In this document: positions 1 to 14,451 of the stretch, one piece after another
How the letters are laid out: each line of letters begins with the position of its first letter
Numbering within the stretch: the stretch's first letter is position 1
Source of the DNA: Agrococcus sp. ARC_14
GTDB lineage: Bacteria; Actinomycetota; Actinomycetes; Actinomycetales; Microbacteriaceae
DNA length: 64,000 nt
Direction: 5' to 3'
NCBI RefSeq assembly: GCF_022436485.1
Contig: NZ_JAKUDO010000001.1
Location: 1,612,001-1,676,000, forward strand
Notes under the pieces: model-generated
Seen by the model: the letters and a program-made list of their open reading frames with translations, nothing else
Told to the model about the DNA's origin: nothing
The model's database searches: none
Translations under genes and position numbers: made by a program

Positions 1-1081
1 TGACGTCGATGTCGAGAATCAGCTTCTGGTACTCTGCACGATCAGCCCGGGAGTAGCAGAAGACGATCACTTGCAGTGTCGGATTTGCCCGCGCGGCCCG
101 CAGCACGACGTCGCGAAGGTGCTCGTCTCGGAAGGAGAATCCGTGAACGAACAGGACGCTGTTCTCCTTCTCCATCTCGTTTGCGAATCGGCGGATCAGT
201 TCGTAGTAGGTTTCATTGAGAACCGTGGTCGCGAACTTCTGCTTGTCAGGGTTGACGATGCCGAGCTTCTTGTACGCCGCCACGAAGTCGTGAACAGCGG
301 GAGAAGCAAGTCCAGGTGACGCCTTGGCGACGAGGGCAGCCGCATTGACCTCAGCGGGTTCGCCAATCGAGATGAGGTCGTCTCGCGCTGCGGCCAGTGC
401 CTCCTGAACTTCGGCGACCACTGTCAGGCCGTGATCGAAGATGATGTCGATTCGCCCAGGCGAGCGCGTTTCTTGGCGCCATCCTACTGAGCCATGGAGC
501 TTCACCAGGTTGAACACCGGCATCTCGGATCGTTGTTCGAACCTGCTGGCCATACGGAGGCGGATGGTGTTGAAGTCGCCGAGGTCAAATCGAGGTCGAA
601 TCTTGCCGCTGAAGCCATCGCTGAAGTCGATACCCATCTGCTCCATGGCGACCTCGAAGACCAAGTCAACGTTGGTTGTGAAAACACTGGCCTGCTTGGC
701 GAGAATCGAGCTGTGACGCTTCAGCAAGATGCGGTTGACAGTGCGCAGGAACTCAGCGTACGAGGTCAACACGCCCTCTGCGTCAGCATGGCGGTCAACG
801 ACCTTCACGTTCGGTACAAGTACTGAGTCGAAGAAGTACGCCTGGATGGACGCCCGGACGATAGTCTTCACGTCGTCATCAGCGGTTGATTCGGAGAGTT
901 CAGTAAGTGCATCTTCGACATTGCCGAGCAGACCGAAGAACGATGAAGGGGTTCCTGCACCGATCAGGAAGCTCAGGTGAGAGTCCTGAACGATCGTACG
1001 AAGACGTTCCGGACTGATGCCGTCAACGGAACTGCCCGGCACAGGCCTATGTGGAACGCCGTTGATGCTGACGTCGGTCAT
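1..1081 (-). CDS. SIR2-fold (sirtuin-like NADase) protein, C-terminus off the left edge
   Basis: Reading leftward from an ATG at 1081 gives about 360 open codons that run off the window. Motifs typical of SIR2-domain defence proteins are visible: FLIGAG with GAG at residues 41-43, FTTNVD with TTNVD at 135-139, KLHGS at 194-198 and HGFSFRDEH at 313-321. Such domains in phage-defence systems (DSR, Thoeris ThsA, SIR2-HerA) hydrolyse NAD+ to abort infection. The ATG overlaps the brxL stop by 4 bases (ATGA), so the protein should be translated together with BREX. Whether a HerA-type ATPase or another partner follows lies outside the window. The fold assignment is firm; NAD+ hydrolysis is inferred from the family. 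Confidence 0.85.
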   Translation of the reverse strand, partial: MTDVSINGVPHRPVPGSSVDGISPERLRTIVQDSHLSFLIGAGTPSSFFGLLGNVEDALTELSESTADDDVKTIVRASIQAYFFDSVLVPNVKVVDRHADAEGVLTSYAEFLRTVNRILLKRHSSILAKQASVFTTNVDLVFEVAMEQMGIDFSDGFSGKIRPRFDLGDFNTIRLRMASRFEQRSEMPVFNLVKLHGSVGWRQETRSPGRIDIIFDHGLTVVAEVQEALAAARDDLISIGEPAEVNAAALVAKASPGLASPAVHDFVAAYKKLGIVNPDKQKFATTVLNETYYELIRRFANEMEKENSVLFVHGFSFRDEHLRDVVLRAARANPTLQVIVFCYSRADRAEYQKLILDIDV

Positions 1082-3204
1082 GAGGCCTCCTTGCCTTCGC
1101 GGATATAGGTGATGCCGAACGCGAAGACCTGGCGGAACTCCTGGCGGCGGGAGCCGAGGTCGAACTGGCTGCCGGAGCCCTTCTGGAAGATGTCGAGCCC
1201 TCGTCCGAGGAGGAGTTTCCAGCCGTGGTCGGTGCGGATCGACCTGTCGTGGATGGTCATGTCCCAGTTGACGGTGAACCGGATGCCGACGGTGGCGGCG
1301 CTGTCTTGGATGTCTTTGAGCATGAGGAGGTGCTGCTGGGCGTACTCGCCGCGGTCTTCCTTGGTCACCAGCGTCACCGCGATCTCGTCAGCGGGGTCTT
1401 TGCTCGCGGCAAGCAGTGCGAGTAGGTCTACGAGGTTGCGTCCTTGGTGCGGTAGTCGGATGTAGGGATCGACGATGGTGATCTCCGTCGCGCCGCGCAG
1501 GTAGGGCACGAGCAGCGTCTCGTAGGAGACCCCGCGCTGGTTCTCCTGGAACTCGCGGTGGCCCTCGAACAGTTGAGGCGCTGCGTCGACCGCCGGCGGG
1601 GCCGGAACACCGGCCTCCTCGCCCGCCAACCCGGAGAGGCTGGACGAATCGGTGCCTGGCTCGGTCTCGGGGCGTCGGGCTCGGTAGTAGTCGGGGTACT
1701 CGCCCTCTTCCAGCGCGGTGACACCGTGCCACGTGCCTGCCGTCTCGGTGTAGCCAAAGTTGACGGCGGCCATCGTGGTGTCGATCCGCAGGATTTGGTC
1801 CTTGACGCGCTTGCGTCCCTCGATGGCGAACCGGAGTAGCTCCTCGATCTCCTCCGGTGTCGCCTGGCCGTTGGGGTAGATGAGTTTCATCAGGCCGGAG
1901 AAGGTCTTGTGGATGCCGTCGCGGTCGCGCGTGGAGATGTCGGAGCCGAGGGTGAAGTGCTGCTGATAGCGGTCGGAGTAGTCGGTGTTGCGCATGGACC
2001 GCAGCACTTCGGCGATGTAGTCAACGACGAAGCCGTAGCCGGACGAGAACATCTCGCTGCGGATCGTGTCGACCTCCCAGCCGGGGATATAGAAGTGGAG
2101 CCGGTCGAGGAAGGCGGAGTCGTGATAGCTCTCGGGTAGCTCGTCGAACAGATCGGAGTGCTTCAGCATGTAGGGCACGTTGTGCGAGGTGTTGCCGACG
2201 AAGACCATCGACGCCTCTGCTCCAAGAGTCTCGACGCCACGGGAGAACGTCTTGTTCGCCATGTAGTTCTTCATGATGTCGACGAGTGCCTTGTCGGTGC
2301 GCTTCTTTTTGCCGGCGAACTCGTCGAACGCGACGACGTCCCAGTATCCGACCAGACCGATGCGTCCGTTGGCGTTGTTGACGAAGAGCTTCGGGACGGT
2401 GACCTCGCCGCCGGAGATCAACATGCCGTGGGGTGAGAACTCGGAGTAGATGTGGGACTTGCCGGTGCCCTTGGGGCCCAGCTCGACGAGGTTGTAGTTG
2501 CGCTCGACGAACGGGATGAGCCGGACGAGCTGCAGCAGCTTGGCCCGCCGTCCGAACATCTCGGGATTGAACCCGATGGACTGGATCAGTAAGTCGATCC
2601 ACTCCTCAGTGTTGAAGCCTCCGCGCGAGGCGAGGTAGCCCTCGTAGTCGAAGCTCGACATCTGGATCGGCTTCAGGCTCCCCAGAATCCACGGCACGAC
2701 GCGGGCGTCGTCGCTGTGGAAGTACTCGATGTCGCAGATGCACCAGACGCCGCCGACGAGCAGCTTCGGGTTCGTCTTCACCGTTGCCGGTTCGACGATC
2801 ACGCCGCCGAGGCCGAGGTTAGCGAACGACGCCTGGTACACGTCTTGCTTGTCGTTCAGCGTCACCGTCACCTTGTCGATGATCCGGTGACGGCCCTTTT
2901 CACGGATGGCGGACTTCACCAGCTCGGACTCGTTGCGGTGCACGTAGTGGTCGGCGAGAATCTTGCGCACCGCGTCGATGCCCGCCTGGATCGTCGCCTC
3001 ATCGTCGGAGGCGGCGTACTGGCCGAGCAGGTATTCCAGCACATAGGAGGGGACGATCGCGTTTCCTTTGACTGTCTTCACGAGGTCTTTGCGCACGACG
3101 GACCCGCCGAACAGCAGGTTGATCTTGTAGTCGAGGTCGCTCTGCTGCGGCGTGCTCGGCTCCGCATCCGTGTTCCGTGCGCTCGGGTTCTCGGTGTCGG
3201 TCAT
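1078..3204 (-). CDS. brxL: BREX type 1 protein BrxL (AAA+ ATPase) with PLD-like C-terminal domain
   Basis: 708 aa from ATG 3204, which has AGGGG upstream; longer in-frame starts lie inside pglZ. BrxL is the ring-forming ATPase of type 1 BREX. A Walker A motif GPKGTGKS lies at residues 243-250 and a Walker B-like VVAFDEF around 292-298. The C-terminal 150 residues (about 558-700) contain IVDPYIRLP and HDRSIRTDHGW followed by LGRGLDIF, which resembles the MIT_C phospholipase-D-like domain rather than an evident Lon protease. It starts 14 bp after pglZ and overlaps the following SIR2 gene by 4 bases. Identity as BrxL is clear; the C-terminal domain reading is from motif memory. Confidence 0.92.
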   Translation of the reverse strand: MTDTENPSARNTDAEPSTPQQSDLDYKINLLFGGSVVRKDLVKTVKGNAIVPSYVLEYLLGQYAASDDEATIQAGIDAVRKILADHYVHRNESELVKSAIREKGRHRIIDKVTVTLNDKQDVYQASFANLGLGGVIVEPATVKTNPKLLVGGVWCICDIEYFHSDDARVVPWILGSLKPIQMSSFDYEGYLASRGGFNTEEWIDLLIQSIGFNPEMFGRRAKLLQLVRLIPFVERNYNLVELGPKGTGKSHIYSEFSPHGMLISGGEVTVPKLFVNNANGRIGLVGYWDVVAFDEFAGKKKRTDKALVDIMKNYMANKTFSRGVETLGAEASMVFVGNTSHNVPYMLKHSDLFDELPESYHDSAFLDRLHFYIPGWEVDTIRSEMFSSGYGFVVDYIAEVLRSMRNTDYSDRYQQHFTLGSDISTRDRDGIHKTFSGLMKLIYPNGQATPEEIEELLRFAIEGRKRVKDQILRIDTTMAAVNFGYTETAGTWHGVTALEEGEYPDYYRARRPETEPGTDSSSLSGLAGEEAGVPAPPAVDAAPQLFEGHREFQENQRGVSYETLLVPYLRGATEITIVDPYIRLPHQGRNLVDLLALLAASKDPADEIAVTLVTKEDRGEYAQQHLLMLKDIQDSAATVGIRFTVNWDMTIHDRSIRTDHGWKLLLGRGLDIFQKGSGSQFDLGSRRQEFRQVFAFGITYIREGKEAS

Positions 3205-3218
3205 GGCTGCTGGTTCCC

Positions 3219-5714
3219 CTAGAAATCGAAGTCCGACGTAAACGAACGCTTGAGCAGGTACTGAGCCCGCTGGTAGACGCGCCATTGGGTGGTGTTGGGT
3301 ATCTGCTCTTCGAGGCGGAACTCGACGGAGCGGTTGTTGAACTCGTTGGCGTCCTGGCTGAGCAGCATCGGTGCGCTCTGGTAGCGGTCGCGCTTGTCGT
3401 CGGAGGGCTGGTCGAAGACCAATGCGGGCTGGTTCGAGATCAGCGTCTCGCCGACGTAGATGCCTGCGCGCAGCGTGCGCGGCTGCACCTTCTCACTGAC
3501 CGGCTCGGACTGGAAGAGCTTCACGACGAGCTGGCCGGTGGTGATCTTGTCGGTCTCGGGCAGCACCTCGACGTTGACCGGGCGGGTGTCGCTTTTGCGT
3601 TTCTTGTTGACTGTCAGCACCGGCACGACGACTTCCTGGAGCGAGGCGCCGCCGTGGACGAACCGTGAGCCCGCGCCGGGCAGCTTAAGTCGGTGGATCG
3701 ACTTGGGAATCTGCACCTCAAGGTCGCTACTGAGCCCGAGCTGTTCGGGCTCGAACTTCCGGAACGCGGGATCGTCCTTGAGCCCTCGGCCCAATACGTA
3801 TCGGCGGTTCGTCACCACGAGGTCATCGCCCTGCGGCTTGGTCGAGAGGTAGAACGCATCGGCAAGGGCAGTGTCCTGGTAGAGGAAGCCGTGGTCGGCG
3901 GTCACGAGGATGTTTGTGGCGTTCGCATTCGTCAGGCGCTTGATCAGGTCGAGGAGATCGCGCAGCGCCTCATTGGCAGCCTCGAACACCTGCCGCTCAG
4001 TGCGGGCCTTGTCGCCGGTCGCGTCGATCCGGTCGTGGTACACGTACAGCACTTGGTGTGCGCTGTATAGCTCCCGCAGTTCGCCGCGCGGCATGGAGAG
4101 GACGTCCTCGGCCTGGATCGCGTACCCATCCACCGGGGCCAGCACCTTGTTGCGGTTCCCTGTTCCGTCGGAGCGCTGGCCGTCGACGAGCACCGGATCG
4201 CCAGCGGACGAGTGACCCAGCGTCTTGTGCGGTAGGAGTGCGGCCATGCCGAGCTGGGTATAGCTCGGCAGGACGCCGAGCATCGCGTCGAGTGTGGCGT
4301 CGAACTTGTCTTCCTGTCGGATGCGTGAGCGCAGTTCGTCGGCGACTTCGTAGCGCAGGGCATCGGAGATGATGACGACGGCCTTCCGGTTGCCCTTGCG
4401 GATGATCGGCTCCACGTGGTCGGCGAAGAACCGTGTCTGGGGCCGCAGCGTTACCGACCGCCAGCCGTCCACCGCATCTACGTGCTGCTGCCAGGTGTTG
4501 CCGAGTTCGTAGAGGAACTTGTTCGCGTAGTGCTTCTCCACCTCGACCCGGAGCGCTTCGAGCGGGCCGGCGTACTCGGTGGTACGGGCGGCGAAGTGGA
4601 ACTGCCGGTAGAGCTGGTCGATGCGGAACCAGGTCTTGCGGTATCGGTCGAGCCCCTCGTCGAACGAGGTAATCCCGAATTGTGCGGTCGCGAGTTCACC
4701 GAGCAGATCGGAGGCGGCACCGAGTGCTGCGTACAGCTCCCGATAGCCGTCAACCCAGATGCTGCTCTGGCGCGCACGGATGGTTTCGGACACCTCGCGT
4801 GCGCTCATCGTCCGCTCGACCACGCCGTGAGCAAGGGCGCTGATGACCTTGCGTTCCACGTCTTCGAAGAGGTCGTTGCCGACAATCTCGGAGAGTTCGG
4901 CGTCCTCAATGCTGTTGCCGTAATCCAGGCTCTCCGATGCCCGTCGTGCGAGGGTGGCGAGGGCGTCGGCGCTGCGCCGGTCGTTGCGCAGGCTCGCGAA
5001 GTCGAGCTGAATGTTGCGCAGGGCTCCCGGGGTTTCTGATGCGAAGCCGGTGATCGCATGGCGGAACATCCACAGCACGAAGTCGTCGACGCTCGGCTCG
5101 CTCGCTTCGTAGCCGTAAATCTTGGCGACCCCAGCCCAGTGAAAGCCATCGAGTCCCTGCTCGGCCAGCGCCGCGTACTTATCGTGGCCACCGCGCGCGT
5201 TCTCGATCAGCAGGGTGCGCGTGAGTTCCAGCATGCTGTGCTCGTGTTGAACGAGGATCACCGCGCACATCTTCGCCCGCAACCTGTCCGCGTCATCGCC
5301 GGCCGCCAGCAGCGTCTTGAGGCTCTGCACCCGCTTGGCGGCGCGGAAGAACTTCTCATGGTCGCGGATCACCGCGTCGATCCCGCTGCCGGTGAGGCCG
5401 AGCCCCTGGCGCACCAGCGCCGTCCGGTCGGCGGTGAAGACCCCATAAGCCAGTTCAAGATCGAGCAACCAATTCCCTATGCCGGGAGGCACCGGGGCTC
5501 CGCGGTAGATGAGGAACTTGCCGGTCGGCTCATCATGGAGCACTTGGTTCTTCACCGCGTACTCGTTGTTCTCCACCCGCACCGTAGTGACGGCAGCCAG
5601 ACCCAGGGCGTCGAGTTCGGCGGCATACTCGCCGTGGGCGTCATGCCAGAAGACGAGCCGTTGTGACTCGAACCGCTGTTCCAGATGCGGGAGGACCGCG
5701 CTAAGTGAACTCAC
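3219..5714 (-). CDS. pglZ: BREX type 1 phosphatase-fold protein PglZ (type A)
   Basis: 831 aa, the usual size for BREX type 1 PglZ. The alkaline-phosphatase-superfamily core is visible: VVIISDALRYE with the metal-ligand Asp at 451, YVYHDRID at 558-565, and LVTADHGF with Asp607-His608. The protein is required for BREX methylation and phage restriction; its biochemical substrate is not settled. The GTG start at 5714 overlaps the stop of the 61-codon gene upstream by 4 bases, indicating translational coupling. The gene order pglX-pglZ-brxL matches type 1 BREX. Confidence 0.95.
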   Translation of the reverse strand: MSSLSAVLPHLEQRFESQRLVFWHDAHGEYAAELDALGLAAVTTVRVENNEYAVKNQVLHDEPTGKFLIYRGAPVPPGIGNWLLDLELAYGVFTADRTALVRQGLGLTGSGIDAVIRDHEKFFRAAKRVQSLKTLLAAGDDADRLRAKMCAVILVQHEHSMLELTRTLLIENARGGHDKYAALAEQGLDGFHWAGVAKIYGYEASEPSVDDFVLWMFRHAITGFASETPGALRNIQLDFASLRNDRRSADALATLARRASESLDYGNSIEDAELSEIVGNDLFEDVERKVISALAHGVVERTMSAREVSETIRARQSSIWVDGYRELYAALGAASDLLGELATAQFGITSFDEGLDRYRKTWFRIDQLYRQFHFAARTTEYAGPLEALRVEVEKHYANKFLYELGNTWQQHVDAVDGWRSVTLRPQTRFFADHVEPIIRKGNRKAVVIISDALRYEVADELRSRIRQEDKFDATLDAMLGVLPSYTQLGMAALLPHKTLGHSSAGDPVLVDGQRSDGTGNRNKVLAPVDGYAIQAEDVLSMPRGELRELYSAHQVLYVYHDRIDATGDKARTERQVFEAANEALRDLLDLIKRLTNANATNILVTADHGFLYQDTALADAFYLSTKPQGDDLVVTNRRYVLGRGLKDDPAFRKFEPEQLGLSSDLEVQIPKSIHRLKLPGAGSRFVHGGASLQEVVVPVLTVNKKRKSDTRPVNVEVLPETDKITTGQLVVKLFQSEPVSEKVQPRTLRAGIYVGETLISNQPALVFDQPSDDKRDRYQSAPMLLSQDANEFNNRSVEFRLEEQIPNTTQWRVYQRAQYLLKRSFTSDFDF

Positions 5715-5896
5715 TCGTGGCCCTCCAGCTTTCGCTCGATCGCTCGCAGACTCTCAAAGTCGGCGGCATCAACTTTGAGCGCTTCCTGACGCTTGCGCTT
5801 ACCATCCGACTCCGGGTAGCGGGCGCCGGCGAGGGACTGTCGTGCCAGTGAGACGACAATCTTCCTGCCACCAGGCGTCCGCTCGGTCTCACTCAT
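5711..5896 (-). CDS. small basic protein encoded between pglX and pglZ, unknown function
   Basis: 61 aa, starting MSETERTPGGRK and ending LRAIERKLEGHE. It is rich in Arg, Lys and Glu, with a predicted helical C-terminus. I do not recognise the family. It is a credible gene because it fits the operon exactly: its ATG overlaps the pglX stop by 8 bases and its stop overlaps the pglZ GTG start by 4 bases. Canonical type 1 BREX has no gene here, so this is a lineage-specific addition that could bridge or regulate PglX and PglZ (inference). An alternative frame from 5892 to 5701 is possible but fits the junction with pglZ less well. Confidence 0.7.
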   Translation of the reverse strand: MSETERTPGGRKIVVSLARQSLAGARYPESDGKRKRQEALKVDAADFESLRAIERKLEGHE

Positions 5897-8800
5897 CGGC
5901 AGCCTCCAACCCTGCGATCTTCTTGAGGGCCGGGTAGAACTTCGGATAGTTGGCCCTCACCCCGTCATCGAAGTCGATCGCGATCTGCTGCGATGCCAAT
6001 GGATAGAGCACGTCATGTTCATACTCGCCGAGTTCCAGCAGCACCTTGCGCAGCCGCTCGGCTTCCTTGAGCGCCGCAGCCTTCTCGCGTGGTGTGCCGT
6101 CCCCGGCGGCGAGACGATCCTGGTGCTGAAGGTTCGCCTCCAGCTTTGACTCGAACTCGCGCAGGTACTCGTTCAGCACCGTTGAGACCGTGGACGAGGT
6201 GTAGCGGTGCATGTAGATCAGCGCGTTGAACGACCCTTTCGGACTGGAGAACAGCCAGTAGATCGGACGCTTCTTGTACCGCTTCACGTGATCGTCGTAG
6301 AACTTCGACCGCCCGGCTCGGGTGATGAAGTACTCCCGCAGAGACGTGACCCCAAGCGACCCCTCAACGAACCGAAGGTTCTCCTCAAAGTGCTGCTCGC
6401 CGAATGCAGCCCGCAGGAACTGACGGAACCGCGCAACGATGTCGTCCTCGAACCAGTCACCATCCACTAGCGGAAGAACGTTGTCGGCATCGGGGGCGAG
6501 CGTTGGCACCGGCACCTTCGCAAGGTAGTCCTGCACGGTCGCACCCTGATCGGCGAGGATCAGCCCCGGCACGTCGAGGCTGTAGCGACCAAACATGCAG
6601 CCGACGCCATAAGAGACGAGTTCTGCCACCGCGGCGGACCGCTGAGCCTTCGCGGCTTCAGCATCACTTGCCCGAAGGAACGAGTACGCAGGGTTGATCC
6701 CGAGCGAGACCGTGCGCGGGTAGTCGGCCTGCCGGAACCAGTCCGAGACTCCATCGGGATCTGCCAAACTGTCCACGGCCACTTCAATATCGTGCAGTTC
6801 GTCGATCTCAGCGCGCCATTGCGTGACAAGCGACTCGTAAATGCGCCGAAGTGGTTGTGCGGGGTCTGTGACAGAGACCAGCTCGCTTGCCTGGAATCGG
6901 GATGAAGTCTCGGATCTATCGAAATCACGTCTAGACAACTCAACCGCACGCGCAGCGAGATGTGCCATCGCGGAACGATCGAACTCCGTGACGGGAATCC
7001 GTGCGACGTCGCCAACTTGAGCGTGCATCGTGGAGTTGAGCACGGACAGGTACATCTGAAACACCCGAGAGTTTGAGAAACCTAGAACCCACTCCGCGTC
7101 CCGGGCATTCGGGTAGAAGCAGTGGCCCGAGATGTCATGGAAACTTCCTTGGGGTGCGAGACGGGCGCTGAAATCCCCGCTGGTCAGGTCGGTCCACGTG
7201 ACCTTCGGAGCCATCCCCCTTTCGAGGGAGAGAATGGTCGCGTTGCGCTGGCTAAGGATGTGGCCCGGATCGCCGTTGTAGTGCAGCAAGAGTTCGACGT
7301 TGCCATACCAGCGCCGGAACGCACCGCCCTTCAAGTAAGTGATCCACTTCGACGAACCCGAGAGCGGAGCCGTCGCTTCAGTTGCAGACACCTCCCACCA
7401 GGATCGAAGGAACTTGCCGTTGTTCGATGTCTGCATGCCTACGCGCGGCGAGGCGATATCGCCAAGTGAAGGCAAGTCCACAAACGCACGTCGAGCCGCC
7501 TCCGGCAGCCAGTACGCAAACGGACTCCCGGGAATCGCCGCGAAAGTGTCGGCTTCGACCAAATACCTACGGTCTTTCACGTCGCCATGAACGGAATCAC
7601 GGAGGGCCGCCGCCTTCAGCGCCTCGCTACGGAGATCTGTAAGGCGAACGAAGGTCGCAACCTTTGCAGATGCGCCCGGCTCTAGCACGAACGCAACAGT
7701 TGACACCACCTCACCGCCGATGCTGTCGAACGCGCCTGTTCCTAGATGCGCAAGCGTCACCAACTCTGAGTCGGCAAGGATTTTAGCCCGGAGGCCCGCG
7801 TAGGTCGTCAGTGACATCCAAGACTGCATGGTGATCATCGCGAGGTAGCCGCCTGGTGCCACAAGCTCAAGCATCCTTTCGATGAACGCGGAGTAAAGAT
7901 CGGACTTCGTACTCGGATAGCGCGATTTGAGGAACGATTGGAGTGCATCCGAAGCATTCCGCTGTCCCATATATGGCGGGTTGGCCACTGCAACGTGGTA
8001 TCGCCGCGACAGGACGGTCGCTTGTTCGATCACACGCGCCGCCCATTTAATTGTGTCTGCCTTGAGCATGTCGCCGCTGTCATCGAGCGTTTCTAGGTGT
8101 CGCAAGAGACGGTCCGTTACGTTCGGGTCAGGCTGGATCAACGCGCCGAGTGTGTCAGCCTCGGCGAACTGGTTCCAGAAGTCCTCCTCCTCACGGCGGT
8201 CACCGTAGCGCGTTACGAGGAAGTCGACCTCGTGAGGCGTGAACGAGATCGGGTCGATCGCGCACGTGTTTGGCGCTACAGGGTTGTTGAAGAACGATCG
8301 CTGCATGGCACGCGCCTTCATCGTGAGCGCGAATGCTGCCAGCGACCCGGCGCGTGGGTCGATCTCGGTGCCATACAGGTTATGGGTGAGGATCAGTTCG
8401 GGAATCTCGGAGGGAGCGTAGCCCTCTTCTTCGTAGATCGCGTGCAGCAGGTCGAAGGCGTAAGTGAGCATGTGCCCGGAGCCGCAGGCGGGGTCGATGA
8501 CCTTCAGTTCCTCGGGGCCACTGACCTTAAGGAAGTCAGCTTCTTCGTTGACTGGGGCGATGTAGTAGTCCATCTGCTCAACGAGCCGCGATGAGGGGTG
8601 GTTGAGCATCCAGAGGCGGCCGAGGGAGTTCTCGACGAGGTAGCGGACGATCCAGTGCGGGGTAAAGAGCTGGGTCGCGGCGGGAATCTCTTCCGCGCCA
8701 GCCTTCTTGCCCCTCTTGAACCCCGCGAAGACCTCGTCCTTCCGTTCCGAGATGTAGAACTGGTAGAGCCAGCCGATCACCTCGACATCTCGGCAGGCAT

Positions 8801-9389
8801 CTGCGGTGAGGGCCGCAGTGGCCCTGGTGAGGATCGAGTCTGACGCGAGGAGGTTTGCCGGGATGAGGAGTTCGGTGTAGTCGCCTTCGCGCTCGAACAT
8901 GAACGGCATGGAGCGGTTCCAGTAGCGGCAGTACTCCGCGAGCAGAATTGTGTACGCCTCGCCTTGGGCGTCTGCGCTGGGACGGGTGCCGTCGAGGAGT
9001 CCGATGATCGTGTCAAGGGTGCGCTTGTTGCTAACAACGGCGGGGTCGATGTTGCCGCGCTTGGCGTCGGCGAGTATCTCTGGTTGTCCGGTCTGCTGGC
9101 CGTGGGCGGGTGAGACGACGCCGACTCCGGTGTAGCCGTTGGCGTCCATGAAGCGCAGCGCGATGATGCGGTTGAACCAGGTGTACGCGACCTTTTCGGC
9201 GATCGCGTCCTTGCCCTTGGCTCCGCCGCCGGCGGCTGCGATGTCGCGCTCGAGCATGGTGATGGCACGCTGGTTCTCGACCCGGGCCGGTGATGCGGGG
9301 GCGAGCACGGCGGTCAGTCGTGCGCTGACCTGGGTGATGAGCTCGCGTCTCGCCCAGGTGGCGAAGCTCTTCAGCGGTGCGGTTTCCAT
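5889..9389 (-). CDS. pglX: BREX type 1 adenine-specific DNA methyltransferase PglX
   Basis: 1166 aa. The SAM-binding motif IDPACGSGH lies at about 298-306 and the amino-methyltransferase motif NPPY at 470-473, followed by a long target-recognition and C-terminal region, as in BREX PglX. It methylates an asymmetric non-palindromic site to mark self DNA; the site cannot be read from sequence. The ATG at 9389 follows brxC by 12 bases, and the brxC stop TAG is the first part of the Shine-Dalgarno TAGGAG. No frameshift or phase-variation repeat was noticed, so the gene looks intact. Confidence 0.95.
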   Translation of the reverse strand: METAPLKSFATWARRELITQVSARLTAVLAPASPARVENQRAITMLERDIAAAGGGAKGKDAIAEKVAYTWFNRIIALRFMDANGYTGVGVVSPAHGQQTGQPEILADAKRGNIDPAVVSNKRTLDTIIGLLDGTRPSADAQGEAYTILLAEYCRYWNRSMPFMFEREGDYTELLIPANLLASDSILTRATAALTADACRDVEVIGWLYQFYISERKDEVFAGFKRGKKAGAEEIPAATQLFTPHWIVRYLVENSLGRLWMLNHPSSRLVEQMDYYIAPVNEEADFLKVSGPEELKVIDPACGSGHMLTYAFDLLHAIYEEEGYAPSEIPELILTHNLYGTEIDPRAGSLAAFALTMKARAMQRSFFNNPVAPNTCAIDPISFTPHEVDFLVTRYGDRREEEDFWNQFAEADTLGALIQPDPNVTDRLLRHLETLDDSGDMLKADTIKWAARVIEQATVLSRRYHVAVANPPYMGQRNASDALQSFLKSRYPSTKSDLYSAFIERMLELVAPGGYLAMITMQSWMSLTTYAGLRAKILADSELVTLAHLGTGAFDSIGGEVVSTVAFVLEPGASAKVATFVRLTDLRSEALKAAALRDSVHGDVKDRRYLVEADTFAAIPGSPFAYWLPEAARRAFVDLPSLGDIASPRVGMQTSNNGKFLRSWWEVSATEATAPLSGSSKWITYLKGGAFRRWYGNVELLLHYNGDPGHILSQRNATILSLERGMAPKVTWTDLTSGDFSARLAPQGSFHDISGHCFYPNARDAEWVLGFSNSRVFQMYLSVLNSTMHAQVGDVARIPVTEFDRSAMAHLAARAVELSRRDFDRSETSSRFQASELVSVTDPAQPLRRIYESLVTQWRAEIDELHDIEVAVDSLADPDGVSDWFRQADYPRTVSLGINPAYSFLRASDAEAAKAQRSAAVAELVSYGVGCMFGRYSLDVPGLILADQGATVQDYLAKVPVPTLAPDADNVLPLVDGDWFEDDIVARFRQFLRAAFGEQHFEENLRFVEGSLGVTSLREYFITRAGRSKFYDDHVKRYKKRPIYWLFSSPKGSFNALIYMHRYTSSTVSTVLNEYLREFESKLEANLQHQDRLAAGDGTPREKAAALKEAERLRKVLLELGEYEHDVLYPLASQQIAIDFDDGVRANYPKFYPALKKIAGLEAADE

Positions 9390-9401: not shown

Positions 9402-12400
9402 CTACAGCGCGATGCGCTTGTGGTCATTGAGGGCCTGCACCAGTGCCGTGCGCAGCGCGTTGAGGTAGCGATCGACGTCTTCTTCGGTCTGCAGGACGCC
9501 GTGAATGCCGGTGGCGTTGATGCTCTTGACCGAGACGGTCTGCTTCGTGGGGGGTGCCGGGGTTGGCTCGCTGCCGTCATCCGGGCGGCTGGTGCGGGGG
9601 GATGCGGCGAGACGGTCGAGGATGGATGGGTAGGTGCGTTCCTCGAAGGTGTTCGCAATCTCGCGGACGACGGCGATTTGGCTCTCGCGACCGACGCGGT
9701 CGAGGATTCCACTGACCATCTGGTTGACGTTGCGCTGGGCGTCGTCGGTGGCGTCCAGATAGATGGTGCTGGTCTGGAGAGGCGCCCAGCGGGAGTCGAT
9801 CTCCAGTCGTGCTCCGTCGCGATTGGTGAGGAGAGCCTCGTCGATGCGGGACTGGAGTTCGATGGCGGCGGCCTTGAGCCTGGTCATCCGGTTGCCGCGG
9901 AAGGCCTGCGGGTCGGCCAGGAGCTGCGCCACCTCCTGGCTGCTGCCGGAGGGCAGGTAGTTCAGGTTGCTGGCGTTGCTGGTCAGAAGGTCGGTTGCCT
10001 CGTCGAAAATTGTCCGCTGGGCGCCACCGAGGAAGGCCTGGATCGGGTCGATGGTGTCGGTTTTCGCGTCGAGCAGATCGTCGGCCATGGCGAAGTCGGT
10101 CAGGTACCAGTCGTCCGGTTTGCCGACCACGGACTCCAGCAGCGCGATGGGAGCGTCGAGCTGAGTCACGAAGGGGTACTTCGAGCCGTTGACGCGTGCC
10201 TTGAGCTCCTCGCACTTGGCGCGAAGGCGCTCACTTGTGTGCCGGGCCAGTTCGAGTGGGTCTTTCGGCGCGGCGGGTTCGTCGAAGAAGTCGGTGCAGA
10301 AGGCACGCAGCGCCGCGACCTTGCGCTGGTCGAAGGTCTTCTGAGGGGCGGCGACGGTGTGGGAGTGCTTCTGCGTATTGCGCAGTGCGGCGGCGACCTC
10401 GCTGCGCTTGAGGATGTTCGAGTCGACGGTCAGAGTGATCTTTGAAGTGCCGACGAGCCAGGCTGAGACGCACTCGATGGACGCGAGGTCCCAGCCGTAG
10501 GGCTTGGCCTGGAAGTGATCGACGATCTTCTTGACAGTGACCTGCTCGCGGAGCCGGTCTCGTTGAAGCAGGTACGACAGCACTTCGTCGGCCGGCGCGG
10601 CGAGTGCGTGGATGGAGGAGTCGTCGATCGCGGCGCCGTCCAGCAGCGTGGACTGGTCGGGGTTCGCGAACCCGGCGACTTGCTGCTCGGAGTAGGTGCG
10701 CCCGCCGAGGATGCCTAGCTGCGTGTAAGTCCGTGCGATGAGGTCCTGGAACCCTTCGGTGATCCGCGTCACCGCGTCCTGCGACCCCACCGTGAGGTCT
10801 GCGGCGTTGATCACGAGATCGGCTCGCCCGACGGCGCGGCGGATACGCTCGACCAGTTCCTTCTCGCGCTCGGAGTTCTGGGTGGCCTTGCCCCGCAGAA
10901 TCTGCTCCTGGACCGGGGACAGCGAGCTGGTTTGCTTGCGCTTGGTGTACTTCTCGGTCTTGATCAGCAGCCGCAGGTCTGCCAGCACGCGGTCGTCGGG
11001 CGCGAGGATCACGCGCAGCTCATCCTTGCCTGCCGAGTGCATCCGAATCTCTTCAGGCCCGTAGGGGTACTCGGGAGTGACGAAGTGCAGCGAGAGTTCA
11101 CGCTGCTGACCGAATGCCTGGTCGTCGAGCTTGTACCCGAACGCGAAGTCCTGCCCGTTCTTGGCGTAGCGGAGCTTAGAGGTCTTGACGACATCGCCGG
11201 AGAGAATCTTGTTGAGCCGGGTGGAGACCTCGGAGGAGTCGATCTCGACGTTCTTGATCTCTTCCTCGATCACCTGCTCTTCATTGGTCAGGTACTCGTA
11301 GACGTTGCCGTTGCGCTGGACATAGGTTTGCGTCTCCAACAGTGTCAGCGCTTCCTGGACCTGCTTGGACAACGCTGGCAGGTCAAGGCCGAACCGGTCG
11401 TATACCAGCACGGTCAGGTTGCGCCGAGTGGCCCGGAAGCTCTCCACATACTTCACCAGGAACAGCGCCTTGAGCAGCCGCACCGCGAGCTTGGTGACCG
11501 GCGAACCGCTGTCGGGGAGGTCGCGCTCGGCCCGGTCGATCGACCTCTGTGCCGCGGACTTCAACGACGCGCGGATGCCGGCGAAGAGCTGATCGAAGGT
11601 GGCCAGTGTGCCGATCTCGACGTCGCCGATGTCCTTGGCGACCTGCTGGACGACGCCGAGCATGGAGCGCTCCCCGACCGAGCTGTTGCGGCCCTCGAAG
11701 ACGTTGTGGTCGGAGATGCCCTCGATCGCGGCTTGGAACAGCGGGAACTGGTAGCTCACGAACGGATAGGTGCCCACGAAATGGGTCACATCGGTGAAGT
11801 TCCGGTAAGTCTTGGCGCCATCGACGAAGTCGAATAGCGTCTTGAAGTTCCCCGCCTCCTGCGCATACACCGCTTCGAGCATCTGGGTGCCCTTGTCGTT
11901 CTTCTCCAGCAGACGCTTGCGGATGACCTCTTCCACATCGGCGGAAGTGAGCTTGACGCGCGTCTTGAATCGGGCCTGAATCTTTGAGAAGTCGTTGCCC
12001 TGCTGCTGAGTGCGGTCGCCGACGACCTTGTCCATGTCCTCCTGCGAGGTCACGAACACCCAGGCCCGCCCACCGCACTTCGTGTTCAGCGACTCGGCGA
12101 TCGTCTGAAGGTTCAACATCAGATGCGTGTTCGAGCCGATGAACTGCCCAACTTCATCGACGAAGAAGTTCAACCGGTAGCCCGAGGGCTGCTGGTCGAG
12201 CCAGCCGCGAACCTCGTCGGCGAAGTCCTCGATCGACACCGAGTAAGTATCCTGGTAGGTCTTCAGGATGTCGGGCGCGGTTGATGCGTCGAGGCCAGTG
12301 ATCTGGGCGTATGCCTCGTTGACCTGGCGACGCACGGTCGGGAGCCCAAAGCTCGGCCTGCGCTCTACCCAGTCGCGGCCGGAGACCGCTCGGAAGGCGT

Positions 12401-12947
12401 GCTTGAACGCCTCCAGCTGGCCCTCGTCGTCGAGCTGCCGTTCGAACCTCGCTATGTGACCCTGGTCGCCGTAGTAGCCGCGGGACTCATCGAATACCTT
12501 CACGAACACGCGCAGCAGTGCGTCGGTCTGATCCTTGCTGATCAGGGTGGCCTTCTGATCGATATTGAAGAGCAGACTCTTCGCCGGGGTGCGATCGGCC
12601 TTGTCGAGCAGCGGCGGCAGGAAGGCATCCGTTGCCTTGACGCGGAAGCTCTCCGAGACGCGCTCGCGCGGGAAATCGTCGCCCTCCACGTCACCGAGGA
12701 GGTGCGCGAGCATCTTCAACAGGTGTGACTTACCGGAGCCGAAGAAGCCCGAAATCCACACCCCGTTCGCGTTGGTGTAGTTCGTGTACGCCTCAAGCAG
12801 CAGCTCCAGCCCCTTGGCGGCTTCGTTGGTCAGGACGTACTCGTCGACCTCGGTGCCCAGGTGCCGGGCGTCGTCGGCCTTGATGACGCCCTCGATGGGC
12901 CGCTGGACGTCTTTGGCGAAAATCTCGGTGAGGTGCATGACGGTCAC
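9402..12947 (-). CDS. brxC: BREX type 1 ATPase BrxC
   Basis: 1181 aa, the normal size for BrxC, a large P-loop ATPase of the ORC/Cdc6-like class. Walker A is GFFGSGKS at residues 67-74, and a hydrophobic strand ending FFVDEVGQ near residue 260 fits Walker B. The C-terminal end carries a Pro/Thr-rich linker and a short tail. The GTG start at 12947 overlaps the brxB stop by 4 bases; an ATG three codons in (12938) is a possible alternative. It acts in the core BREX complex with BrxB, PglX and PglZ. Confidence 0.95.
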   Translation of the reverse strand: MTVMHLTEIFAKDVQRPIEGVIKADDARHLGTEVDEYVLTNEAAKGLELLLEAYTNYTNANGVWISGFFGSGKSHLLKMLAHLLGDVEGDDFPRERVSESFRVKATDAFLPPLLDKADRTPAKSLLFNIDQKATLISKDQTDALLRVFVKVFDESRGYYGDQGHIARFERQLDDEGQLEAFKHAFRAVSGRDWVERRPSFGLPTVRRQVNEAYAQITGLDASTAPDILKTYQDTYSVSIEDFADEVRGWLDQQPSGYRLNFFVDEVGQFIGSNTHLMLNLQTIAESLNTKCGGRAWVFVTSQEDMDKVVGDRTQQQGNDFSKIQARFKTRVKLTSADVEEVIRKRLLEKNDKGTQMLEAVYAQEAGNFKTLFDFVDGAKTYRNFTDVTHFVGTYPFVSYQFPLFQAAIEGISDHNVFEGRNSSVGERSMLGVVQQVAKDIGDVEIGTLATFDQLFAGIRASLKSAAQRSIDRAERDLPDSGSPVTKLAVRLLKALFLVKYVESFRATRRNLTVLVYDRFGLDLPALSKQVQEALTLLETQTYVQRNGNVYEYLTNEEQVIEEEIKNVEIDSSEVSTRLNKILSGDVVKTSKLRYAKNGQDFAFGYKLDDQAFGQQRELSLHFVTPEYPYGPEEIRMHSAGKDELRVILAPDDRVLADLRLLIKTEKYTKRKQTSSLSPVQEQILRGKATQNSEREKELVERIRRAVGRADLVINAADLTVGSQDAVTRITEGFQDLIARTYTQLGILGGRTYSEQQVAGFANPDQSTLLDGAAIDDSSIHALAAPADEVLSYLLQRDRLREQVTVKKIVDHFQAKPYGWDLASIECVSAWLVGTSKITLTVDSNILKRSEVAAALRNTQKHSHTVAAPQKTFDQRKVAALRAFCTDFFDEPAAPKDPLELARHTSERLRAKCEELKARVNGSKYPFVTQLDAPIALLESVVGKPDDWYLTDFAMADDLLDAKTDTIDPIQAFLGGAQRTIFDEATDLLTSNASNLNYLPSGSSQEVAQLLADPQAFRGNRMTRLKAAAIELQSRIDEALLTNRDGARLEIDSRWAPLQTSTIYLDATDDAQRNVNQMVSGILDRVGRESQIAVVREIANTFEERTYPSILDRLAASPRTSRPDDGSEPTPAPPTKQTVSVKSINATGIHGVLQTEEDVDRYLNALRTALVQALNDHKRIAL

Positions 12948-13543
12948 GGTTCCTGTTCCAGAATGTTCTTGGCGCGGTAGTACTGGTCGTCCTTCAACCT
13001 GCCGAACAGCACTAGCGATGAGCCGAGGGCGTCGGACTGCTCATAGCGGCCGGGAAAGAACATGAGCATGGGTCGGCCTACCACGACGCTCTGCAAGTTG
13101 TTGAGCACGTTGTGGGAGCGGATGTAGGGGAAGACTTCGCCGATCCCCGTCAGGAACACGATGTCGAAACCGCCATCCGCAAGCTTCGCTCTGATGGCTG
13201 GAGCGAGATGCTGCTGCGGGTTGAGCATGGACTGCAGCATTTCGGTGAACTCGGCCTTATCCAGCTCGGGCTCCACTTCGAGGACTTCATCCCAGTCGCC
13301 GCGCTCCTTGAGTACCTCGACCGACAGGTCGTAGATGTTGATCTCGCGGACCTCGATGCCTTTGTTGGCCAGCCGATTCTTGACTCGTTTCTTGGCCTGC
13401 GCCACGTCGAGTGCGTGCTCGGGCTCGTAGGGATAGATGAAGAACGGAACTTCGTTCGACAGTCCCTCCATCTTCAAGAAGCGCTGACCGCTCAGCACCG
13501 AGAACAAGTGCTCCTCTTGGCGAGTGAGTTCATGTGGTGTCAC
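12944..13543 (-). CDS. brxB: BREX type 1 protein BrxB (DUF1788)
   Basis: 199 aa, the standard length of BrxB. The segment RFLKMEGLSNEVPFFIYPY, the central GIGEVFPYIRSHNVLNNLQ and the MLMFFPGRYEQ stretch are typical of DUF1788. BrxB has no known enzymatic activity and is a structural partner in the BREX core. The GTG start overlaps the brxA stop (GTGA), and the gene in turn overlaps brxC, so brxA-brxB-brxC form one coupled unit. Confidence 0.95.
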   Translation of the reverse strand: MTPHELTRQEEHLFSVLSGQRFLKMEGLSNEVPFFIYPYEPEHALDVAQAKKRVKNRLANKGIEVREINIYDLSVEVLKERGDWDEVLEVEPELDKAEFTEMLQSMLNPQQHLAPAIRAKLADGGFDIVFLTGIGEVFPYIRSHNVLNNLQSVVVGRPMLMFFPGRYEQSDALGSSLVLFGRLKDDQYYRAKNILEQEP

Positions 13544-14160
13544 CGTGGGACCTCCTTGCGGTCGCGGGTCGGGAGGAACCGCACATCGCTCGGCGTCTGT
13601 GCGTCGAGCGCGTCTCGGACACGCTCAGACAGCGGCGCGTTCACAACCTCACCGCCGATGAGAAGACCGGCTTCGGTCAGCATCCTGAACACGGTCGAGC
13701 GGAGCTTCTGCAACGTTGAGTCCTTCACTTCAGCGAGCTCCGGATGCCACAGCGCTTTCCTCCGAACGAAGCTGTCGAAGTCCTCGTAGCTCAGCGAGGG
13801 GGTGAGCAAGAGGAATCGTTCGCGCAGGACCTCCTCGGCGAAGTCACCAATCACGGCGTAGCGGCGACAGGCCGCGACCCACATCAGATGGTCGCGCTCG
13901 CTGGGGCTCGCATCTCGCAGCAACTCCAGCTCCGCATCTGTGAGCACCGCCAAGCGCTGCGCGACCTCGCGCGCCAGCCGGAACCCCGACGAGGCCGTTC
14001 TCGCCTGGAGCAGATTCTCCGCGCGGAGTTGGTCACGGACAATGCGCCAGTCACGAACGTCCAGGTAGAGCGGCACAGCGATCACGGCCTCCCGCGTCAG
14101 GAGGGCACCGCTGGTGAACGACAGCGCGTATCGGCCGTCCGTCTGGGATGTGCCGCTCAT
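13540..14160 (-). CDS. brxA: BREX type 1 protein BrxA (DUF1819)
   Basis: 206 aa, matching BrxA (DUF1819, NusB-like helical fold, DNA-binding in described homologues). Characteristic features are the N-terminal YALSFTSGALLTRE, the central LMWVAACRRYAVIGDFAEEVLRERF and the C-terminal winged region ending in RFLPTRDRKEVPR. The ATG at 14160 has a strong GGAGG upstream. A 90-base gap separates it from the HTH gene ahead, so it may have its own promoter, but no clear hexamers were identified in that gap. Confidence 0.94.
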   Translation of the reverse strand: MSGTSQTDGRYALSFTSGALLTREAVIAVPLYLDVRDWRIVRDQLRAENLLQARTASSGFRLAREVAQRLAVLTDAELELLRDASPSERDHLMWVAACRRYAVIGDFAEEVLRERFLLLTPSLSYEDFDSFVRRKALWHPELAEVKDSTLQKLRSTVFRMLTEAGLLIGGEVVNAPLSERVRDALDAQTPSDVRFLPTRDRKEVPR

Positions 14161-14250: not shown

Positions 14251-14451
14251 TCACCCTGGCGGGGAACTCTCGGAGGAGGAGGCAGCACCGCCTCGGCGCA
14301 CCCAGTCGTCTATCTCGCTGGCTTGGAACTTCCAGAGGCGGCCGACCTTGTGTGCGGGCATGCCCTTCTCGGCGATCCACGTGTAGACGGTGTCTTTGGT
14401 GATGCCGAGGTGGGCGGCGATGTCGTCTGCGGACAGCCACGGCTCAGACAC
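14251..14451 (-). CDS. excisionase-family helix-turn-helix protein at the head of the BREX operon
   Basis: 66 aa, GTG start at 14451 preceded by GGGAGG. Residues 4-52 match the excisionase/MerR-like HTH_17 domain: LSADDIAAHLGITKDTVYTW then GMPAHKVGRLWKFQASEIDDW. Proteins of this kind either assist recombination directionality or act as small DNA-binding regulators. Its place as first gene of the BREX operon, 90 bp upstream of brxA and far from the recombinase, favours a regulatory role, but a recombination-directionality role for the ICE cannot be excluded. Confidence 0.85.
   Translation of the reverse strand: MSEPWLSADDIAAHLGITKDTVYTWIAEKGMPAHKVGRLWKFQASEIDDWVRRGGAASSSESSPPG

Follow-up and report, generated by a model that had tools for sequence, protein, structure and literature searches.

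A divergent SIR2-HerA gene pair appended to a type 1 BREX operon in Agrococcus sp. ARC_14

At the end of a BREX operon in Agrococcus sp. ARC_14 a gene with SIR2 motifs begins inside the stop codon of brxL, and the question is what such a gene does there. A sequence-only reading of this DNA had proposed that the SIR2 protein is either a second-line abortive arm deployed with BREX or the first gene of a SIR2-HerA module placed under BREX control. The window, i.e. the whole analysed stretch of 64,000 nucleotides, maps to C1:1612001-1676000 of the genome, and positions without prefix refer to it.

The BREX operon and the start of sir2

On its minus strand the window encodes a complete type 1 BREX gene set, assigned by PADLOC and Pfam, in which the top PADLOC match of each gene bears the corresponding name: brxA (13540..14160), brxB (12944..13543), the ATPase gene brxC (9402..12947), the methyltransferase gene pglX (5889..9389, with Pfam methylase domains), pglZ (3219..5714) and brxL (1078..3285). 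BrxL scores 1136 bits in PADLOC and is of the BrxL-HKD type with a C-terminal PLD-like (MIT_C) domain; its true start is probably located downstream of 3285, as the open reading frame overlaps pglZ by 67 nt. A small DNA-binding protein of 66 residues with a GTG start (14251..14451, minus strand; HTH_17, E=1.1e-14) is encoded just ahead of brxA and may be a regulator of the operon. The gap between pglX and pglZ, only 174 nt long here, is a second variable place in other genomes, being occupied by a YhcG/DUF1016 PD-(D/E)XK nuclease in Enemella (L004:4325-5371) and, on a Methylomonas plasmid, by a PDDEXK nuclease (L072:2286-3443). A Rhodococcus opacus plasmid harbors an AbiE-type toxin-antitoxin pair between pglZ and brxL (L071:4599-6028).

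The start codon of sir2 and the TGA of brxL share the bases of an ATGA at 1078..1081 (minus strand). Such 4-nt overlaps are frequent in operons and are also found at the brxA/brxB and brxB/brxC junctions of this one. The sir2 frame (1081..2) is open to the window edge, so that 1..1081 holds codons 1-360 of 421; in the 16 kb around the left edge 61 further open residues are followed by TGA, and the full gene spans C1:1611816-1613081 (L002:11816-13081). The features that had been read from the letters are all present, namely the 360-codon frame starting in the brxL stop and the motifs GAG (residues 41-43), TTNVD (135-139), KLHGS (194-198) and HGFSFRDEH (313-321), and the interruption just left of the window that was envisaged as a counterargument is absent. 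A pseudogene at the window edge is thus rejected, as the frame runs uninterrupted to the TGA after 421 codons. Compared with three relatives, dN/dS is 0.09-0.11 for sir2, close to 0.11-0.14 for brxL and 0.08-0.10 for herA (dS exceeds 1 in two of the three), which indicates a gene under selection and rules out a chance open reading frame.

Within the 3′ end of brxL a putative Shine-Dalgarno-like AAGGAGG, read by eye, is positioned 4 nt ahead of the sir2 ATG (1086..1092, minus strand). A search for internal sigma-70 promoters in L002:9100-15990 gave none, with a mean of 1.1 in shuffled sequences, a result of low information in a high-GC actinobacterium. The earlier statement that independent expression is unlikely goes too far: the ribosome-binding site and a Sinomonas copy that is under purifying selection with no brxL detected both speak for an expression of sir2 that does not require BREX.

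Identity as a divergent SIR2-HerA pair

The next gene after sir2 is herA (C1:1609832-1611823, L002:9832-11823, minus strand, 663 residues), which starts ATGTTTGA and overlaps the sir2 stop by 8 nt. The suggestion to look left of base 1 for a HerA-type ATPase is hereby borne out, as is the alternative of sir2 being the first gene of a SIR2-HerA module, whereas a lone SIR2 effector is rejected because of the adjoining, overlapping herA. HerA matches Pfam DUF87 (E=2.2e-14) and the PADLOC HerA model (E=1.1e-164), both scans having been run on a mechanical open reading frame of 687 residues. The 663-residue protein contains the P-loop GNTGSGKS at 172 and LIIDEAH at 496, and the GNTGSGKS and DEAH columns are invariant in all nine aligned relatives. 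A MobF relaxase of 1209 residues (C1:1605537-1609166) follows on the same strand 665 nt after herA; a MobF gene is likewise located behind the pair or its counterpart in G301, Enemella and Leucobacter.

The SIR2 protein is assigned by Pfam SIR2_2 and PADLOC SIR2 with E=2.3e-11 and E=3.3e-49 for the 360-residue part and E=3.2e-11 and E=8.1e-50 for all 421 residues. In Thoeris and DSR systems SIR2 is part of a fusion with either a SLOG domain or a large sensor domain; these systems are rejected here, as the 421-residue protein contains SIR2_2 only in Pfam and neither Dsr nor ThsA is among its 25 PADLOC hits. Judged by sequence, SIR2 and HerA are a complete SIR2-HerA pair of the Nezha type, added behind a type 1 BREX operon that has all six core genes. 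Systems of this kind are reportedly described in Garb 2022, Tang 2023 and Shen 2023. The Agrococcus locus resembles them in its two adjacent genes, in a SIR2_2 NADase-type domain with aligned Asn and His and in a DUF87 HerA with a P-loop, and differs in its distant sequence and in being joined to BREX, whereas Nezha is stand-alone.

Among solved structures, three distinct sequences match SIR2 (best 8j4u, E=2.5e-14) and nine match HerA (best 8yho, E=6.5e-29), and the entries 8j4u and 8yhx contain both SIR2 and HerA chains. With a profile of 18 SIR2 sequences the structure matches reach about E=7e-16, and Asn137 is aligned to Asn168 and His196 to His227 of 8j4u; both residues are the same in all 21 sequences of the alignment of relatives. 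According to PMC11559045, the Nezha complex of V. cholerae consists of 12 SIR2 and 6 HerA subunits, its defence is abolished by N168A or H227A, and deletion of herA also impairs immunity. Asn168 and His227 of 8j4u would be these mutated residues, the numbering being read from two sources as equivalent. By homology, SIR2 is therefore a predicted NADase that would deplete NAD+, and by analogy with the characterised relatives it presumably forms one NAD+-hydrolysing complex with HerA. Scores of 90.6 bits for NCBIfam SIR2_antiphage (cut-off 500) and 127.3 bits for HerA_antiphage (cut-off 800) are far below these equivalog thresholds and point to a divergent subfamily of the same kind. AlphaFold2 monomers of close relatives are poor (mean pLDDT 54.6 and 51.2) and were left unused.

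Recurrence and exchange of the cassette

A protein search returned 438 relatives from the 8000 best candidates, and those among the 120 listed that carry an organism name are from actinobacteria. A scan of one genome per species with two peptide patterns gave ten loci and misses relatives, e.g. in Naumannella and Agromyces. Whole-genome samples yielded 5 of 396 genomes in the same order (the Agrococcus genome, G103 and G418, plus Miniimonas and Trueperella already in the pattern scan) and only the Agrococcus genome in the class (1/394), in the phylum (1/396) and among 99 relatives searched with the single SIR2 protein; these low counts show that a pair of this type is rare. No match at E 1e-10 was found in 50,697 phage records, and no phage-borne copy was confirmed in an IMG/VR scan with two patterns.

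Pattern-scan loci and whole-genome samples together comprise 13 genomes, G103 being the most distant with 43% identity in SIR2. Their neighbours, assigned with tblastn and Pfam, place sir2 behind brxL in seven, behind a type III res in two and ahead of a type III mod-res in one, with none of these in three. The pairing therefore recurs in other genomes, and its uniqueness to this genome is rejected: a 4-nt overlap between brxL and sir2 is found in Agrococcus, Enemella, Tessaracoccus, Mycobacterium interjectum, a Leucobacter MAG, a Microbacteriaceae MAG and G418, reading ATGA or GTGA in the six others as well as in G301. Enemella and Tessaracoccus are not independent, being 96% identical over 13 kb. 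Two dynamin-like GTPase genes follow herA in Enemella (L004:13364-17183, Pfam) and in Tessaracoccus (96% DNA identity) and are absent from the Agrococcus locus. In G418 the sir2 match ends after codon 137 and is followed by transposase-like open reading frames (by eye), with no herA in the 8 kb behind, while pglZ and brxL are open.

In Microlunatus and Miniimonas, where the contig ends inside sir2, the gene is joined by a 1-nt overlap to the res of a type III restriction-modification (R-M) operon containing a helicase, DUF4391, Mod and Res (assigned by Pfam and tblastn, respectively). In Trueperella a type III mod-res pair begins 78 nt after herA. Sinomonas, Actinomyces and G103 show no BREX or R-M neighbour by tblastn with the Agrococcus BREX and Microlunatus type III genes and, for three flanking open reading frames in Actinomyces, by Pfam. 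For two Rhodococcus plasmids with the pair, out of four plasmid records of which two were examined for context, an incomplete gene table lists no BREX gene within 12 kb.

As for the base rate, BrxL is present in 22 of 396 genomes of the order, and 21 brxL loci were read (20 plus that of Agrococcus; G185 was left out), several of them on contigs ending soon after brxL. The first gene behind brxL is a recognised SIR2 in four of the 21, namely in Agrococcus, G301, the truncated G418 and the Dsr1-like G355 (140 nt away), a count that could miss divergent SIR2 proteins, as in nine loci the first gene was not compared with the family library. Other occupants are GmrSD_N and HEPN in G175, an NsnC/HEC-07-like protein and GmrSD in G064, and an 83-residue AAA_15 (OLD-like) stub in G300. 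In G175 the two genes follow brxL with a 4-nt overlap each (L053:6406-8018), a further case of tight effector coupling at this position. In G444 the place between brxL and MobF, held by SIR2-HerA in Agrococcus, encodes a 434-residue protein (L049:6562-7866) without match in Pfam or PADLOC, a candidate new defence gene.

HerA proteins of the PDLC04106 type occur in 7 of 297 genomes (and in one of 14 control genomes), and of the seven only that of G301 is behind brxL. In G311, G300, G284 and G317 a SIR2-HerA pair is confirmed by tblastn with no BREX hit in the stretch examined; the 308-residue herA neighbour in G285 is SIR2-like by position and motif only, and G205 does not hold such a pair. Besides its BREX locus (L082:6349-9652, reverse complement), G300 has a divergent SIR2-HerA pair on a separate contig, next to a fragment of MobF. 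Pairs of the G301 type are also carried by plasmids: in Mycolicibacterium 371 nt downstream of a type I R-M operon whose last gene is sprT-like, in Corynebacterium with no R-M gene among those listed for the preceding 6 kb, and in Rhodococcus opacus after two open reading frames without Pfam match.

The locus G301, found via brxL, depicts an exchange of the cassette. Its proteins are 98% (a pglZ fragment of 297 residues) and 95% (brxL) identical to those of Enemella, whereas SIR2 and HerA align only locally, with 28% identity over 231 and 35-36% over 157 residues. Accordingly, the best PADLOC models are PDLC04084 and PDLC04106 for the G301 pair versus PDLC04080 and PDLC04097 for the Agrococcus pair. 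At the DNA level, G301 follows Enemella with 93.6% identity until 2 nt after the brxL stop; across the cassette the two then share no match of at least 100 nt, and they are similar again (87%) from 55 nt behind the G301 herA, the replaced stretch on the Enemella side including the two dynamin-like genes. The incoming pair has a 4-nt overlap with brxL as well, and the relaxase is conserved. Between the Microlunatus type III locus and the BREX locus of the Microbacteriaceae MAG, the match (plus strand, pieces of at least 60 nt) is confined to sir2-herA at 10013-13305 and 10013-13311, with 80.5% identity. The HerA of this MAG is 88.5% identical to that of Microlunatus; between this MAG and that of Leucobacter, identities are 90% for BrxL, 69% for SIR2 and 61% for HerA, and as no sharp DNA break is seen between these two MAGs, this further case of exchange is weaker.

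The sharp break at the brxL stop in G301 and the joins to both BREX and type III operons characterize SIR2-HerA as a precise, swappable effector cassette; as far as the alignments reveal, it is an exchangeable two-gene unit that is also joined to other restriction operons. The dN/dS of sir2 and herA is 0.08-0.17 in four pairs (dS being high in two), and in both comparable pairs dS of brxL is lower than that of sir2-herA, which fits separate histories.

In Sinomonas brxL was not detected in the 10 kb before sir2. About 30 nt ahead of its ATG nevertheless resemble a brxL 3′ end: 33 nt including the ATG are 85% identical to Agrococcus brxL (E=2e-5 in a three-gene comparison), and the same stretch is 79% identical to M. 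interjectum brxL (E=0.01) and 73% to that of Enemella (E=5.9). This remnant, of moderate support, hints at a past linkage to brxL; the ribosome-binding site lies among these bases, which may therefore be retained for that use. In the trees Sinomonas groups with Agrococcus, Enemella and Tessaracoccus (support 97/95 for SIR2 and 93/96 for HerA), next to M. interjectum, which is linked to BREX. The two type III copies are placed beside that of the Microbacteriaceae MAG, likewise linked to BREX. Support is weak at several forks, roots are midpoints, and sampling is without G301 and G418 for SIR2 and without G301 for HerA.

Cooperation with BREX and its alternatives

Our preferred reading, held with moderate confidence, is that the type 1 BREX operon has acquired SIR2-HerA at its 3′ end as a two-gene cassette, which is expressed from the operon message. 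As inferred from the layout, the operon message would likely also yield SIR2-HerA by co-transcription and translational coupling. BREX would block most phages by modification-based exclusion, and upon replication of a phage that gets past or inhibits BREX the complex of HerA and SIR2 (Asn137/His196) would hydrolyse NAD+ and stop or kill the cell. As the cassette brings its own sensor candidate (HerA/SIR2) and relatives live alone, it most likely fires by itself, a view that we hold with the same moderate confidence and that overlaps in part with the alternatives below. What BREX would contribute is joint expression and mobility, not the trigger. From the gene order a second-line deployment together with BREX is plausible, since the junction is kept in 7 of the 13 genomes and survives replacement of the cassette. 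Related pairs that stand alone and the strong ribosome-binding site that sir2 has of its own speak against taking a dependence of SIR2-HerA on BREX for granted.

A less probable account, which we regard as a serious one, takes the place behind brxL on a relaxase-bearing element as a tolerant landing site, where an independent SIR2-HerA is a passenger and its nearness to BREX reflects shared transport only. It is consistent with the varied other occupants behind brxL (G175, G064, G355, G300 and G444), with MobF behind the cassette in all four loci named above and with the related pairs standing alone. Contrary to this expectation, the swap in G301 did not bring a random system but a second SIR2-HerA pair, to the same place and with the same 4-nt overlap, and fusions with 4-nt or 1-nt overlap are made to two unrelated modification-based operons.

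These same fusions, together with the 5′ arrangement of the type III mod-res pair in Trueperella, would also be expected if the BREX or type III R-M enzyme made the trigger, e.g. unmodified, nicked or stalled phage DNA sensed by HerA, such that the NADase is gated by the modification system. We consider such a composite system improbable, as the Sinomonas copy is under purifying selection with no BREX detected and closely related pairs in the trees occur with BREX, with type III R-M or with neither. A comparable case is PrrC, a suicide effector embedded in a type Ic R-M operon; the R-M enzyme keeps it silent until an anti-restriction peptide releases it. SIR2-HerA resembles PrrC as a predicted suicide effector carried by a restriction operon, but no such control is known for it. 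Very improbable is a role in element protection, in which NAD+ depletion would be the penalty for damaging or inhibiting BREX or for the entry of a rival element, as addiction or competition on a relaxase-bearing island: the MobF gene behind the cassette and the related pairs on Rhodococcus, Mycolicibacterium and Corynebacterium plasmids would fit, but no antitoxin arrangement is seen and G418 has lost the SIR2-HerA arm with pglZ and brxL still open, so that the loss is tolerated.

Comparable arrangements are known among BREX systems. As described in a recent survey (Rakesh and Krishnan 2026, PMC12839542), type 1 BREX with BrxL-HKD and auxiliary effectors shares with the Agrococcus locus the six core genes, the C-terminal PLD-like domain of BrxL and an extra effector beside the core. 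The effectors catalogued there are nucleases, and its main text mentions neither SIR2 nor sirtuin nor NADase. BREX-Related Capture, also described in PMC12839542, likewise combines a HerA-family ATPase with BREX-like proteins but has its own protein set with HerA/FtsK as the constant part, whereas the HerA described here has SIR2 as its partner and comes as an addition to a standard type 1 BREX. BrxU, a GmrSD type IV enzyme found with BREX (Picton 2021, as described in PMC10952713), is likewise an independent second system complementing BREX; unlike SIR2-HerA, which is predicted to act on NAD+, it acts on modified phage DNA. Among the titles and abstract openings searched, none reports a SIR2-HerA pair linked to BREX; an earlier mention is possible, as preprints, supplements and most of the subscription literature lie outside this scope.

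A more far-reaching proposal, which we rate as quite unlikely, is that SIR2-HerA cassettes of this type are dedicated metabolic kill switches of modification-based immunity with interchangeable effector modules, and that the BREX or type III R-M operon both co-expresses them and supplies the signal (failed exclusion, or nicked or unmodified replicating DNA) upon which HerA would activate the NADase. A predicted NAD+-depleting pair joined to the operon would add a metabolic arm to the nuclease auxiliaries catalogued in PMC12839542. Loci that share BREX and relaxase flanks but carry one of two different SIR2-HerA pairs, loci in which the arm is truncated and loci that have SIR2-HerA without BREX provide a natural comparison set, and they bear on the question of whether defence systems encoded in one operon cooperate or merely travel together.
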